A DNA stretch of 36,213 nucleotides, from contig JAJYZC010000037.1 in NCBI GenBank assembly GCA_021800255.1, positions 1 through 36,213 of the forward strand, in the 5' to 3' direction. Positions 10,597 to 36,213 of this stretch are shown here, piece after piece. Source of the DNA: Acidobacteriota bacterium. Its GTDB lineage: Bacteria; Acidobacteriota; Terriglobia; Terriglobales; Acidobacteriaceae. Under the pieces are notes generated by a model. It did not search any database. It was not told the DNA's origin and saw only the letters and a program-made list of their open reading frames with translations. Both the position numbers and the translations under genes were made by a program. The first letter of the stretch is position 1. The number at the start of each line of letters is the position of its first letter.

Positions 10597-10677
10597 GCCC
10601 GCTCATCGCAAAGAACGCGATGAACAGGGCACGGCTCTTATCGCTCACTGCGACTTGAATGGCCGGGCCACCGGCCC
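10597..10677 (+). repeat. Hairpin repeat, copy A
   Basis: A member of a dispersed family in this window. It has GCCCGC, then the stem TCATCGC / GCGATGA round loop AAAGAAC, then ACAGGGCAC, a variable middle, and the tail GGCCGGGCCACCGG (first base of the usual GACCGGG replaced). It lies just downstream of the small membrane protein gene (minus strand). After the tail the sequence again reads CCCGCTC, like the start of another unit that is then lost. Confidence 0.85.
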
Positions 10678-10684
10678 CCCCGCT

Positions 10685-10996
10685 CTACTCAGTGGGCGAT
10701 GGGTAGATTTTCTCCAGATAACGAAGATTGCTCCAGGATTCCCACCACGCTGCTCCAAAATAAGCGGCAACAATCAGGAGCACCATTGAAAGCTGAATCA
10801 ATATTTTGCCTAGCTCAAAATGAGCATAAAGAGGCTCTCCTGCTGAGAACGGCACCACCGCTGCGCAGTTAAGAAGAAGTCCGATGAGAGAATTTACACA
10901 CCGCCTCCTCCAAAACCTTACTCGCATCCTTGCACCCTGCTTTGCTGCCAGGATTTCTCCCTCACTCGGAGCGCCTTCAATATTCAAAGTATTCAA
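10685..10996 (-). CDS. Small two-helix membrane protein, possible RHS immunity protein
   Basis: Up to 103 residues from a TTG at 10996; an ATG at 10927 is an alternative that would still keep both membrane segments. Two hydrophobic helices are visible (CVNSLIGLLLNCAAVVPFS and ILIQLSMVLLIVAAYFGAAW), joined by a short polar loop. I do not recognise a family. It begins 16 bases after the stop of the RHS tip gene on the same strand, the classic place for the immunity gene that protects the producer from an RHS toxin. A membrane immunity protein would suit a membrane-active toxin. The role is inferred from position only. Confidence 0.55.
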   Translation of the reverse strand: MNTLNIEGAPSEGEILAAKQGARMRVRFWRRRCVNSLIGLLLNCAAVVPFSAGEPLYAHFELGKILIQLSMVLLIVAAYFGAAWWESWSNLRYLEKIYPSPTE

Positions 10997-12080: not shown

Positions 12081-12114
12081 CGCTCGATCCTCTCCGCCAC
12101 GATCTTACCGCAAC

Positions 12115-12205
12115 CCCGCTCATCGCAAAGAACGCGATGAACAGGGCACAGATCGTTGCAAATTATGATGGGGGAACGGCAGAATCGATGACCGGGCCAC
12201 CTGCC
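12115..12205 (+). repeat. Hairpin repeat, copy B (tandem with C)
   Basis: It has CCCCGC, the stem TCATCGC / GCGATGA with loop AAAGAAC, ACAGGGCACAG, a variable middle and the tail GATGACCGGGCCACCTGC. The tail runs straight into copy C, so the two form a direct tandem with a 90-base period. They lie between the RHS tip start and the end of the radical SAM gene. Confidence 0.9.
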
Positions 12206-12295
12206 CCGCTCATCGCAAAGAACGCGAGGAACAGGGCACAGCCACAACCACAACTCTTACCACTCACCGTGATTTGAATGACCGGGCCACCCGGC
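12205..12295 (+). repeat. Hairpin repeat, copy C
   Basis: The second unit of the tandem. Loop AAAGAAC is kept, but the right arm reads GCGAGGA, giving one mismatch in the stem. The tail is GAATGACCGGGCCACCC. The middle (about 40 bases) differs from copy B, which argues against a recent slippage duplication. Confidence 0.9.
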
Positions 12296-15407: not shown

Positions 15408-15435
15408 GGCAGGCGGCCTGCCGGAGCCGCAGTGC

Positions 15436-15550
15436 GTTCCCAGGACTGCGCTGCGCTTGTCCTGGGCTATTTTCCAACCCTTTCTACGGGAGGGACGGTG
15501 CAGGCAATGGCTCTAACGCGGCTAACGGAGCCAGCATTGCGAACAAAATC
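15436..15550 (+). repeat. Three-hairpin repeat, copy 1
   Basis: This 115-base segment recurs at 31336-31452 with only scattered differences. Hairpins: CCCAGGA / TCCTGGG; CCCTTT / GGAGGG (two T-G wobbles); GGCTC / GAGCC. The second copy has perfect versions of the last two (CCCTCC / GGAGGG, GGCTCC / GGAGCC). It starts 29 bases after the cytochrome stop, so it may also end that transcript. Confidence 0.85.
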
Positions 15551-24674: not shown

Positions 24675-24753
24675 GCCCGCTCATCGCAAAGAACGCGATG
24701 AACAGGGCACAGCTCTTGCGGAGCACTGCGATCTTGATGACCGGGCCACCTGT
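24675..24753 (+). repeat. Hairpin repeat, copy D
   Basis: It has GCCCGC, the stem TCATCGC / GCGATGA with loop AAAGAAC, ACAGGGCACAGCTCTTG, a variable middle and the tail GATGACCGGGCCACCTG. It lies in the convergent gap 24514-24885 between rlmN and the PIN toxin gene; nothing else was recognised in the rest of that gap. Confidence 0.9.
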
Positions 24754-31210: not shown

Positions 31211-31335
31211 ACAAAATGGCAGCGTGTTTGCTCTCCATGGGGCACCGGCGGGCAGGGAAATCGCACGAACGGCGCATGAGGAACTGGCTGAGGATTGCGC
31301 CGCCCCTGCGGGGCTGGTCTGCCGGGCGTGCGCAC

Positions 31336-31452
31336 GTTCCCAGGATTGCGCTGCGCTTGTCCTGGGCCATTTTCCGGCCCTCCACTACGGGAGGGACGGC
31401 GCAGGCAATGGCTCCAACGCGGCTAACGGAGCCAACCTCGTAAACAAAAATC
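31336..31452 (+). repeat. Three-hairpin repeat, copy 2
   Basis: The second copy of the 115-base repeat at 15436. Hairpins: CCCAGGA / TCCTGGG, CCCTCC / GGAGGG with loop ACTACG, and GGCTCC / GGAGCC, all perfect. It starts 125 bases after the receptor stop; the 31211-31335 stretch has no gene. Its right end coincides with the point where the integrase pseudogene sequence is lost. Confidence 0.85.
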
Positions 31453-31989: not shown

Positions 31990-32064
31990 GGCGCTATCGT
32001 CTAGGGGTTAGGACGTGAGATTCTCAATCTCAAAACCCGGGTTCGATTCCCGGTAGCGCTACCA
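31990..32064 (+). tRNA. tRNA-Glu (anticodon CTC)
   Basis: A complete cloverleaf: acceptor strands GGCGCTA and TAGCGCT (a G-T pair at the end), D arm beginning GTCTAGGGG, anticodon stem TGAGA / TCTCA with loop TTCTCAA giving anticodon CTC (reads GAG), T arm CCGGG-TTCGATT-CCCGG, discriminator A and encoded CCA. The 3' half from 32018 is duplicated at 34355, which marks this gene as an integration site; the gene itself remains intact. Confidence 0.95.
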
Positions 32065-32065
32065 G
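32018..32065 (+). repeat. attL: left att repeat in tRNA-Glu
   Basis: This 48-base segment, from the anticodon stem to just past CCA, is repeated at 34355-34402 with one mismatch (C here at 32031, T there). Tyrosine integrases commonly use tRNA 3' halves in this way and restore an intact tRNA on insertion. Confidence 0.85.
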
Positions 32066-32077
32066 CCATTTGACGCT

Positions 32078-32103
32078 AAAGCCCATTAAATCAACGGGCT
32101 TTT
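32078..32103 (+). terminator. Terminator after tRNA-Glu
   Basis: AAAGCCC pairs with GGGCTTT across an 11-base loop and is followed by T and CGTTTGG. It lies 13 bases after the tRNA and has a diverged counterpart at 34415-34440. Confidence 0.65.
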
Positions 32104-32135
32104 CGTTTGGGTTGAAATCGTCCTAGCGCGTGTTT

Positions 32136-34354: not shown

Positions 34355-34402
34355 AGATTCTCAATCTTAAAACCCGGGTTCGATTCCCGGTAGCGCTACC
34401 AG
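34355..34402 (+). repeat. attR: right att repeat (tRNA-Glu 3' remnant)
   Basis: Identical to 32018-32065 except one base in the anticodon stem. It lacks the tRNA 5' half, so it is not a gene. It marks the right junction of the island with the chromosome. Confidence 0.85.
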
Positions 34403-34414
34403 AGATTTGACGCT

Positions 34415-34440
34415 AAAGCCCGTTCAATGAGCGGGCTTTT
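34415..34440 (+). terminator. Former tRNA-Glu terminator beyond attR
   Basis: AAAGCCCG pairs with CGGGCTTT and is followed by T and CGTTTG. It matches the hairpin after the intact tRNA, with one more base pair. It is probably the chromosome's original tRNA terminator, displaced when the island inserted. Confidence 0.65.
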
Positions 34441-34539
34441 CGTTTGCCCAGAAAACTCAATGGCGCGCGCCGCAGCCTCGACGGTCACGCTTCCATCTGG
34501 CTCCATTCCGCGTATACTTTCCGGCAAGGCTACCCGCGC

Positions 34540-35145
34540 ATGGACACATCGTCGATCTTCATTCCAAGTTTTCTGCAAAATGCGGCCATTCTCACGATTG
34601 TTTTGGCCTTTGCCGGCTACCTCGTCACCTTTCTGGGCACGCGCATGATGGCCCGCCGCGCCGATCGCCTGAGCTTGGTGAACAGCCGTCTGAATCAGTT
34701 TTATGGCCCGCTCTACGTGGCCACGGTCGCCGGAAACATCGCCTATCGCTCGCTGCTCGAAAAGCAGGGCAAGACCCAGTGCCATCCCATCACCGACGCG
34801 GAGATGAAGGAGTGGGTGCTGTGGATGACCACCATCTTCATGCCTCTCAACGATGTTCGCGAGAAGATCATCATTGAGAATGCGCATCTGATCATCGAGG
34901 AGGAGATGCCGCGCTGCCTGCTGGACTTTGTGACTCACGTAGTGGGCTATAAGGCTGTGCTGGCCAAGTGGGCCGATGGGAATTACTCCGAGAGCCGCTC
35001 CACCATCGGCTGGCCGCCGGAGTTCGACCTCTATGTCGAGCGATCCTACCGGGCCCTCAAGGCGGAGCAGACGCGGCTGCTGCGCAGTTCCGTGTGGAGG
35101 CTTTTTGCCCGCGTGAACGGGCGCACCCGGCACGCGGCAGATTAG
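34540..35145 (+). CDS. Membrane-anchored protein of unknown function
   Basis: A 201-residue protein from the ATG at 34540, with AAGG upstream. It has one N-terminal membrane helix (AAILTIVLAFAGYLVTFLG) followed by a basic segment (TRMMARRADRL) that would stay in the cytoplasm. The soluble part is helical with many charged residues (LNQFYGPLYVATVAGNIAYR, NDVREKIIIENAHLIIEEEM). I do not recognise a named family. A longer in-frame start at 34444 would overlap the displaced tRNA terminator and is less likely. The hairpin repeat F touches its stop codon. Confidence 0.75.
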   Translation: MDTSSIFIPSFLQNAAILTIVLAFAGYLVTFLGTRMMARRADRLSLVNSRLNQFYGPLYVATVAGNIAYRSLLEKQGKTQCHPITDAEMKEWVLWMTTIFMPLNDVREKIIIENAHLIIEEEMPRCLLDFVTHVVGYKAVLAKWADGNYSESRSTIGWPPEFDLYVERSYRALKAEQTRLLRSSVWRLFARVNGRTRHAAD

Positions 35146-35244
35146 CCAGGTAGCCCGCTCAAATGTAGCACCCTTCCTGATCGCATGATTGGAGGTGATG
35201 ATTGGCGGTGCCCCATTCAAAACGCGTTCTTTGCGTTTTGAGTA
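35146..35244 (-). repeat. Hairpin repeat, copy F (inverted)
   Basis: Read on the minus strand, it has the stem TCAAAACGC / GCGTTTTGA round loop AAAGAAC, then ATGGGGCACCG, a variable middle and the tail GAGCGGGCTACCTGGC. Compared with copies A, B and D, the stem has AAA in place of T on the left and TTT in place of A on the right, so pairing is kept. It faces copy E head to head. Confidence 0.8.
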
Positions 35245-35267
35245 AGAGACCACGAACCCAACCCTTT

Positions 35268-35369
35268 CCCGCTCATCGCAAAGTACGTGATGAACGGGGC
35301 ACAGCTTGATCGCACAGCTTGATCGGATTCACATCGTCCCTTTACGGTTGGTGACCGGGCCACCTGCCC
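35268..35369 (+). repeat. Hairpin repeat, copy E
   Basis: It has CCCGC, the stem TCATCGC / GTGATGA (one G-U wobble) with loop AAAGTAC, ACGGGGCACAG, a longer variable middle that includes a small internal duplication (GCACAGCTTGATC twice in part), and the tail GTGACCGGGCCACCTGCC. Together with copy F it fills the convergent gap 35146-35436; the last 65 bases hold nothing recognised. Confidence 0.88.
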
Positions 35370-35436: not shown

Positions 35437-36213
35437 TCACCTTCGGGCGTTCAGCCCCAGGTTGTTCCACAGCCGCAGCGTAGGTTCGGATTGATTGATG
35501 GTGTAGAAGTGCAGGCCCGGCGCGCCGTTTTTGAGCAGCGTCTCACACAGCCTCGTGACCACGCCGAGCCCGAAGTCCTTGAGCGCCTCTTTGTCGTTCT
35601 CAAGCCCTTCCAGCCGCAGCCGCACCCAGCGCGGCAGGTCGGCCCCGCAGCCCGAACAGAAGCGCACGGTATTCGCGTAGCCGGTGATGGGCATGATCCC
35701 CGGCACAACCGGAATGCGGATGCCCGCCTTCGCGCACCGCTCCATAAAATCGAAGTAGGCATCGGCGTTGTAGAAGAGCTGCGTCAGCGCTCCGTCCGCG
35801 CCGGCCTCCACCTTGCGCCGGAAGTTTTCAAAGTCCACGGCCGGGCTGGGCGCCTGCGGGTGCATCTCAGGGTAAGCAGCGACCTCGATCTGGAACGCAT
35901 CTCCGTGCGTCTCGCGGATGAAGGCGACCAGTTCGTTGGCGTAATGAAAATCACCGGGCGCGGACGGGTTCATGGCCGTGGCAGGCAGGTCGCCGCGCAG
36001 GGCTACGATCCGCTTGATTCCCGCTTCCCGGTAACGGTTGAGCAGAGCCGCGATGTGCGAGCGCGTCGAACCCACGCAGGTCAGGTGCGGCGCCGCCTCC
36101 GCCCCGGTGTGCTTCACCACCGCCATGAGCGTTTCGTAGGTGCCCTCCTGGTTCGAGCCGCCGGCTCCATGCGTCACCGAGAAATAATCTGGCCGCACTG
36201 CGGCCAGCCGCGC
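35437..36213 (-). CDS. metF: Methylenetetrahydrofolate reductase, N-terminus beyond window
   Basis: The 258 visible residues lack only about the first 40 of a normal-length protein. MetF reduces 5,10-methylene-THF to 5-methyl-THF for methionine synthesis, using FAD. Family points are PDYFSVTHGAGGSNQEGTYE, LTCVGSTRSHIAALL, IVALRGDLPA, the FAD/folate region AAYPEMHPQAPSP, ADGALTQLFYNADAYFDF, PVVPGIMPITGYANTVRF and LHFYTINQSE near the end. The start codon is outside the window. It converges on the membrane-protein gene, with the inverted pair of hairpin repeats in between. Confidence 0.95.
   Translation of the reverse strand, partial: ARLAAVRPDYFSVTHGAGGSNQEGTYETLMAVVKHTGAEAAPHLTCVGSTRSHIAALLNRYREAGIKRIVALRGDLPATAMNPSAPGDFHYANELVAFIRETHGDAFQIEVAAYPEMHPQAPSPAVDFENFRRKVEAGADGALTQLFYNADAYFDFMERCAKAGIRIPVVPGIMPITGYANTVRFCSGCGADLPRWVRLRLEGLENDKEALKDFGLGVVTRLCETLLKNGAPGLHFYTINQSEPTLRLWNNLGLNARR

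Follow-up and report, generated by a model that had tools for sequence, protein, structure and literature searches.

Among the closest described systems to the repeat analysed here is REP/RAYT, in which a RAYT, an enzyme of the HUH-Tyr type, is flanked by inverted palindromic repeats (REPs) that recur between genes, and in which repeat and enzyme coevolve; each of these traits has its counterpart in the present system. REP copy number is usually over 100 (PMC2817692), and the REP foot reads GT[AG]G, with a marginal, GTGG-enriched set to which some TIRYTs have been assigned (PMC6006769). How TnpAREP reads the foot and the irregular stem is described in PMC8266576. The host phylum of our DNA, Acidobacteriota, is not mentioned in the text of PMC2817692 that was available. 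PMC3733652 describes RAYT-like genes that have long terminal inverted repeats (TIRs) in place of REPs, calling the genes TIRYTs and the units TIRtrons, and sets apart a TIRYT group from Acidobacteria. In T. saanensis, K. versatilis, A. capsulatum and G. mallensis the RAYT-like genes are flanked by such long TIRs, not by REPs; some acidobacterial TIRs belong to repeat families, some are self-complementary, and GGGGWSAS is common to some of them. The available text of that paper, its Figure 9 excluded, describes neither coevolution of stem and enzyme nor matching between arm and tail of the TIRs.

We analysed a stretch of 36,213 nucleotides from an acidobacterial contig (JAJYZC010000037.1), referred to below as the window. 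A first-pass annotation had listed six copies of a dispersed hairpin repeat in it, and all six were confirmed at their places. Their parts are as follows.

10597..10636, plus strand: copy A hairpin, TCATCGC-AAAGAAC-GCGATGA followed by RGGGCAC; it pairs better on the minus strand (the REP strand)
10661..10672, plus strand: copy A distal tail, GGCCGGGCCACC; on the minus strand a GTGG foot and a CCC half-arm
12114..12153, plus strand: copy B hairpin
12190..12201, plus strand: copy B distal tail, GACCGGGCCACC
12204..12243, plus strand: copy C hairpin, in tandem with B; right arm GCGAGGA, one pair lost
12280..12291, plus strand: copy C distal tail
24675..24714, plus strand: copy D hairpin, the top-scoring copy (68.8 bits)
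24739..24750, plus strand: copy D distal tail
35146..35369, no strand assigned: F/E inverted pair, hairpins inside and tails outside
35149..35160, minus strand: copy F distal tail, which reads GGTAGCCCGCTC on the plus strand; its GTAG foot is canonical, and the AAA that comes next matches F's own stem
35206..35245, minus strand: copy F hairpin, of another stem type, TCAAAACGC-AAAGAAC-GCGTTTTGA; the REP strand is the plus strand
35267..35306, plus strand: copy E hairpin, TCATCGC type, with a G.T in the stem and the loop AAAGTAC
35353..35364, plus strand: copy E distal tail, GACCGGGCCACC

The copies had been described as intergenic and as mostly lying just beyond gene ends. All six do lie between predicted genes taken as real. 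The second statement holds for C, D and the F/E pair, which are near 3' ends, but not for A, which is 528 and 341 bases from its neighbouring genes unless the 103-aa ORF at 10685-10996, for which no Pfam match was found, is itself a gene. D and F/E each have convergent genes on either side; in the case of F/E these are a gene ending at 35145, whose stop codon (35143-35145) is 3 bases from F's tail, and an MTHFR gene on the minus strand (35437-36198). Read in reverse complement, the left flank of copy B (12097-12113) is, by eye, the leader that adjoins a decayed RAYT-like start on another contig (C2), and B therefore probably descends from a RAYT end. The window also contains other repeats. A 113-bp direct repeat of 85% identity is present at 32018-32130 and 34355-34467; its first copy overlaps a tRNA-Glu gene (31990-32064) and the 3' flank of that gene, so that the second could be where a stretch of inserted DNA ends. 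At 15435-15548 there are two adjacent repeats that recur with 89-91% identity 15.9 kb away, at 31335-31449, and one of them has a short inverted repeat (CCCAGGAC...GTCCTGGG).

The genome holds further copies, whose absence the first-pass annotation had said would count against its reading. The 13-base core CGCAAAGAACGCG, used as seed, occurs 13 times in the 3.36-Mb genome, compared with 0 times for the same word reversed as a control. With copy D as the query, blastn found 20 places in the genome, which with F makes a total of 21 copies, and gave matches in 10 of 21 genomes, this one included. A covariance model (R1) was built from the 21 copies, so that its 21 matches here are its own seeds; it also matched 9 of 20 relatives, with 7-39 matches in 8 genomes of the same genus and 1 in a further genome (G014), and 11 of the 21 genomes gave no match, all of these counts being lower bounds, as at most 150 candidates were scored per genome. 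The repeat family occurs across soil acidobacteria. Its 21 copies by R1, including the 6 intergenic ones of the window, are far below the number usual for REPs. Six copies are identical over 35 nt (CCCGCTC...GGGGCAC). At two places (C2:18,200-18,750 and C24:43,100-43,300) copies are embedded in longer repeated modules, GAGGCGAACAGCAGCTCGTCTTCCAGGTACGATTGTGC...GTAATTTTCTGCAAAGGCG, part of which, by eye, also precedes copy A in the window.

The first-pass annotation had found no REP-associated transposase in the window and had left the agent of spread without a name. A search with PF01797 likewise gave no match on the window contig (C14), but it gave three matches to Y1 transposases elsewhere in the genome, on C2, C31 and C73. 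The C2 ORF (locus L022:7677-8294, 205 aa), which PF01797 matched, also scored 107.2 bits with NF047646 (curated cut-off 80), and its best PDB match was 4er8, TnpArep (E 1.2e-9). The frame is open from ATG to stop, and the translation has an HUH motif (EHVH) and YIHRNP. Comparison of its motifs (EHVH, WQ, YIHRNP) with the table available from PMC6006769 gave no subclass with a clean fit. The gene sits within a cluster of six repeat copies and is flanked on both sides by inverted ones: upstream a minus-oriented copy with its tail, 23 bases before the ORF, and downstream two plus-oriented copies, the first 7 bases past the stop. Such a placement of a RAYT, with inverted REPs on both sides, is the classical one (PMC2817692), and the C2 RAYT is probably the enzyme that spreads the window repeats. 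The other two matches are not likely partners. The RAYT on C31 (C31:1-600; NF047646, 108 bits) has its own palindromic inverted ends, of the GGAGCCTTCAGGCTCC type and unrelated to the window repeat, i.e. GGGAGCAGGAGCCTTCAGGCTCCTG and, by eye, its reverse complement; the match on C73 covers profile positions 53-121 only and has a repeat copy about 2 kb away.

The records with relatives of the C2 RAYT at 83-84% bore the titles Acidobacteriaceae or Acidobacteria. Of all 68 RAYT loci found, 63 had acidobacterial titles, Granulicella and Edaphobacter among them; the other 5 had titles from Verrucomicrobia, Planctomycetes/Phycisphaerales or Bacteroidia/Bacteroidales. We surveyed the flanks of 52 loci, i.e. 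51 of the 68 and the genome's own, leaving out 17 short or contig-edge matches. RGGGCA was present near the gene on 79 of the 104 flanks, and directly before it a stem of score at least 6 (pairs minus 3 per mismatch) was found on 68 of these 79, compared with 8.2% in base shuffles of the same stretches; these shuffles, like those of the tail matching below, preserve base content, not dinucleotides. The stems vary from locus to locus (e.g. TCATCGC, TCATGCG, CCATGACG, AGGTCTC, CCTTCCGC and CCTAGC) and the design is constant. In the relative G004, for example, hairpins at 228288-228329 (minus) and 228859-228900 (plus) lie around a RAYT match at 228372-228884, the plus-strand hairpin overlapping the 3' end of the match. 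Co-occurrence was not clean throughout: G010 and G012 have 24 and 7 hairpins with no RAYT at E 1e-10, only NF047646 matches below the cut-off, and G002, G005 and G008 have RAYTs at about 52-58%, none with this hairpin type. Beside a RAYT of G008 (L103:701-1260) there are seven tandem hairpins of the CCTTGCGA type, with 52-53 bases between neighbours.

Stem type follows RAYT phylogeny. On a tree of 36 RAYTs, with stem types binned by hand, 7 changes were needed, which is the minimum for 8 types, whereas 500 shuffles of the stem-type labels needed at least 14 (mean 18.1). To reach the 36 rows, the 52 were cut to 39 by hand after the first tree, which removed two outliers and the rows that were partial, out of frame or lacked a hairpin; a script then cut the 39 to 36 (2 with two in-frame stops, 1 without a hairpin). 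That first, uncleaned tree of 49 rows, several of them out of frame, needed 9 changes.

The stem-loop described in the first-pass annotation is present, but its stem is longer than was described, continuing past TCATCGC/GCGATGA through CCC-X ... Y-GGG to about 12 bp, and the loop AAAGAAC is shared by all of the window copies but E (AAAGTAC). The interruption in this stem is a C.A on the window plus strand of copies A-E, where the minus strand has a G.T. Summed over the 21 copies, the paired cells number 230 of 252 on the REP strand and 200 of 252 on its complement, and DNA folding gave the REP strand the lower energy for D, for the copy upstream of the C2 RAYT and for F, with a slight reversal for E (-7.7 vs -7.9). 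A strand that pairs better is also what a transcript would show and, with C, D and F/E near gene 3' ends, would suit an RNA element, i.e. a transcribed hairpin that terminates transcription or stabilises mRNA. We consider this explanation very improbable. In the copies inspected by eye no T run follows the hairpin on either strand; gene direction does not predict which strand is the REP strand (the genes on either side of D and of F/E are convergent, and the REP strand of F is opposite to that of E); the copies cluster round the RAYT and their stem type follows it; and Rfam at gathering thresholds matched only a tRNA in the window. The elements may nevertheless have a secondary role for the host beside their spread.

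Matching changes in the two arms had been taken as proof, from the six copies, that the folded form is selected. Neither the six nor the 21 copies show this, covariation among them being weak. Within the genome 88.6% of cells were paired compared with 87.9% after shuffling, a level reached by 86 of 500 shuffles, and changes on both sides were seen in 1 cell, or in 2 when the longer stem was used, which 14 of 500 shuffles reached. There is hardly any variation in the left arm, and decay in the right arm (GATGA to GAGGA and others) proceeds independently. Such decay without compensation, and the apparent RAYT-start remnants that by eye follow the copies on C73 and at C2:18689, are what would be expected if the repeats had spread long ago with a RAYT and were now passive, inert relics. 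We regard this as unlikely, as the reading frame of the C2 RAYT is uninterrupted and encodes both catalytic motifs, six copies have kept the identical 35 nt, and different genomes have different hairpin types at one site (see below).

By the first-pass annotation's own criterion the within-genome outcome comes close to refuting the claim of paired changes; the comparison between lineages rescues it. Among 114 hairpins of the class whose stem ends two bases before RGGGCAC, the outer X/Y pair is A/T in 58, G/C in 55 and A/C in 1, compared with 75 of 114 paired in the best of 5,000 shuffles, although these hairpins are related and represent 9 distinct flank combinations only. This pair, like the shuffled stem comparison on the RAYT flanks, is independent of the selection of the class. 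The first unpaired position, unpaired by construction in this class, is C.A in 113 of the 114; some other copies (e.g. in L017, L073, L081 and L091) are fully paired two bases before RGGGCAC. The repeat is a dispersed, REP-like folded element as first described, and its fold is kept through paired changes across lineages.

The distal tail is no independent box but a repeat of the hairpin's foot and lower 3' arm: on the REP strand GACCGGGCCACC reads GGTGG-CCC-GGTC, the lower 5' arm with its foot, which is GTGG here and GTAG in F. Compared in register with its own 3' arm, the tail has an identity of 0.655 at offset 0 and of at most 0.223 at other offsets. Tails match the arms of their own stem type: for 19 types the match was 0.640 (permuted mean 0.405, maximum 0.608; 0 of 20,000 permutations as high), and for 27 types with 84 tails, taken from well-paired stems only, so that stem pairing is by construction, it was 0.661 (permuted mean 0.367, maximum 0.557; again 0 of 20,000). 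Among the exceptions is L036, in which a TCAAAACGC hairpin has a TCATCGC-type tail. In a survey that also took well-paired stems only, and whose RGGGCAC anchor fixes the GTGC foot, the tail began 18-56 bases after RGGGCAC, with one case at 99. Directly 5' of the hairpin the foot is GTGC and neither GTAG nor GTGG: GCAC was read there on 71 of the 79 RAYT flanks, no more than GCA having been set by the anchor. A canonical foot is on the distal tail instead, where it is GTGG in 70 and GTAG in 1 of the 71 tails chosen by GGGCYACC. In sum, the tail duplicates half of the hairpin, its foot being GTGG or GTAG, and it changes with the stem. We found no description of a stem-matched tail in the available texts of PMC3733652, PMC6006769, PMC8266576, PMC3116915 and PMC12306157, figures and supplements excluded, or in related literature listings.

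Each full element has, on the REP strand, a single 3' arm (GATGAGYGGG) and two 5' arms that might pair with it, the hairpin arm with its GTGC foot and the distal tail with its canonical GTGG or GTAG foot; the tail would be the outer boundary and guide site and the hairpin the enzyme's grip. Alternatively, tail and arm may be alike only because arm and foot were repeatedly duplicated on the spot or copied through gene conversion, with no role for the second pairing. The single register in which foot and arm match fits this, as do single-strand folds of D, A and F, in which the tail is unpaired with the arm and the hairpin wins. It has to be reconciled, however, with a different foot (GTGG, not GTGC) kept at variable distance in many stem types, and with two arm positions in the two-base-gap class that are complementary in 59 of 61 and 58 of 61 tails; we judge it to fall a little short of an even chance. 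More tentatively, the element may be a two-state REP end in which the two 5' arms compete for the one 3' arm: the near arm (GTGC foot) would form the hairpin gripped by the RAYT, and the far arm (GTGG or GTAG foot, about 20-60 bases off) would replace it after cutting, for joining. If so, the joint change of tail and stem in many types would follow from selection on both pairings, and the 'long TIRs' of acidobacterial RAYT genes would be overlapping REP halves.

Copy F had been read as an E-like copy whose stem had gained two base pairs by compensating changes. The 9-bp stem, compared with 7 in the others, is there; F appears, however, to be a separate stem type, the partner of E's, and not a compensated mutant, because in both L034 and L036 the hairpin upstream of the RAYT is of the TCATCGC type and the one at the RAYT's 3' end is TCAAAACGC; L034 also holds a pair with both of these stems and no gene. 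The F/E pair resembles in its layout a RAYT unit from which the gene is missing. Folded whole as one strand it gave nothing clear (z -1.83). The gene pair around it is conserved in the relatives compared. At this site G011 has 101 bases between matched ends, compared with 364 in the window, and by eye no RGGGCAC hairpin in the stretch inspected; G010 has two hairpins of other types and G008 another type again. These differing contents at one site fit repeated insertion, although the emptiness of G011 could be a loss. The two hairpins of G010 (L164:1170-1590), which differ in stem type, are each followed by GGGATACCACGAACCC, and the spacer between F and E has ACCACGAACCC, which suggests a flank shared by several hairpin types. 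Of close hairpin neighbours in the loci fetched, mostly near RAYT genes, 35 of 44 pairs had the same orientation and 9 were inverted, and these counts weaken the view of F/E as a typical REPIN.

The flanked Y1/HUH gene, the 21 copies, the fit of stem type to RAYT phylogeny and an orthologous site without the element together argue for a RAYT system of acidobacteria in which the copies are non-autonomous elements of REP type, a reading to which we give a probability of roughly 90%. Counting against it are the low copy number, the unclean co-occurrence of hairpin and RAYT, the GTGC foot, the weak covariation inside the genome, and the fact that, of the 79 RAYT flanks that have the motif, no more than 29 show a recognisable tail. 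In such a system the RAYT would recognise the element as a folded single strand (the window minus strand for A-E, the plus strand for F), cut near the foot and join the element elsewhere, mostly in intergenic DNA. A dispersed repeat that had lacked an explanation is thereby linked to a named enzyme, and the match of tail to stem gives a testable way into how a RAYT chooses its cut site, a question left partly open in the discussion of PMC8266576 as available.

Compared with TIRtrons as described in the available text of PMC3733652, the present loci share the acidobacterial RAYT-like gene with terminal inverted repeats, and the TIRYT enzymes and the RAYTs found here are probably the same group, the two being set together by description, not by sequence. 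Unlike some TIRtrons, however, they do not have GGGGWSAS; the motif here is RGGGCAC, of which the form GGGGCAC misfits W at the fifth base. REP-RAYT coevolution is shown here in a major soil phylum whose RAYT-like genes that paper had placed with those that have long TIRs, not REPs, at their flanks. The ends of P. putida 607 and P. fluorescens 4255 (same source) likewise have a GTAG-type unit joined to a separate stem-loop, but there the unit is degenerate and the stem-loop unrelated, whereas here the halves match and change together. Like the REPINs described in the available text of PMC3116915, F/E joins two hairpins in inverted orientation and has no gene, although inverted doublets, at 9 of 44 close pairs, are not predominant here. 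As in REP/RAYT, and as with Y and Z2 of E. coli in the available text of PMC2817692, two different end repeats can surround one gene; the differences are the hairpin foot GTGC, the separate GTGG/GTAG half-arm about 20-60 bases outside it, and the few copies. The system works like REP/RAYT, but its hairpin does not carry the foot that formal membership would require, and we therefore file it as a variant.
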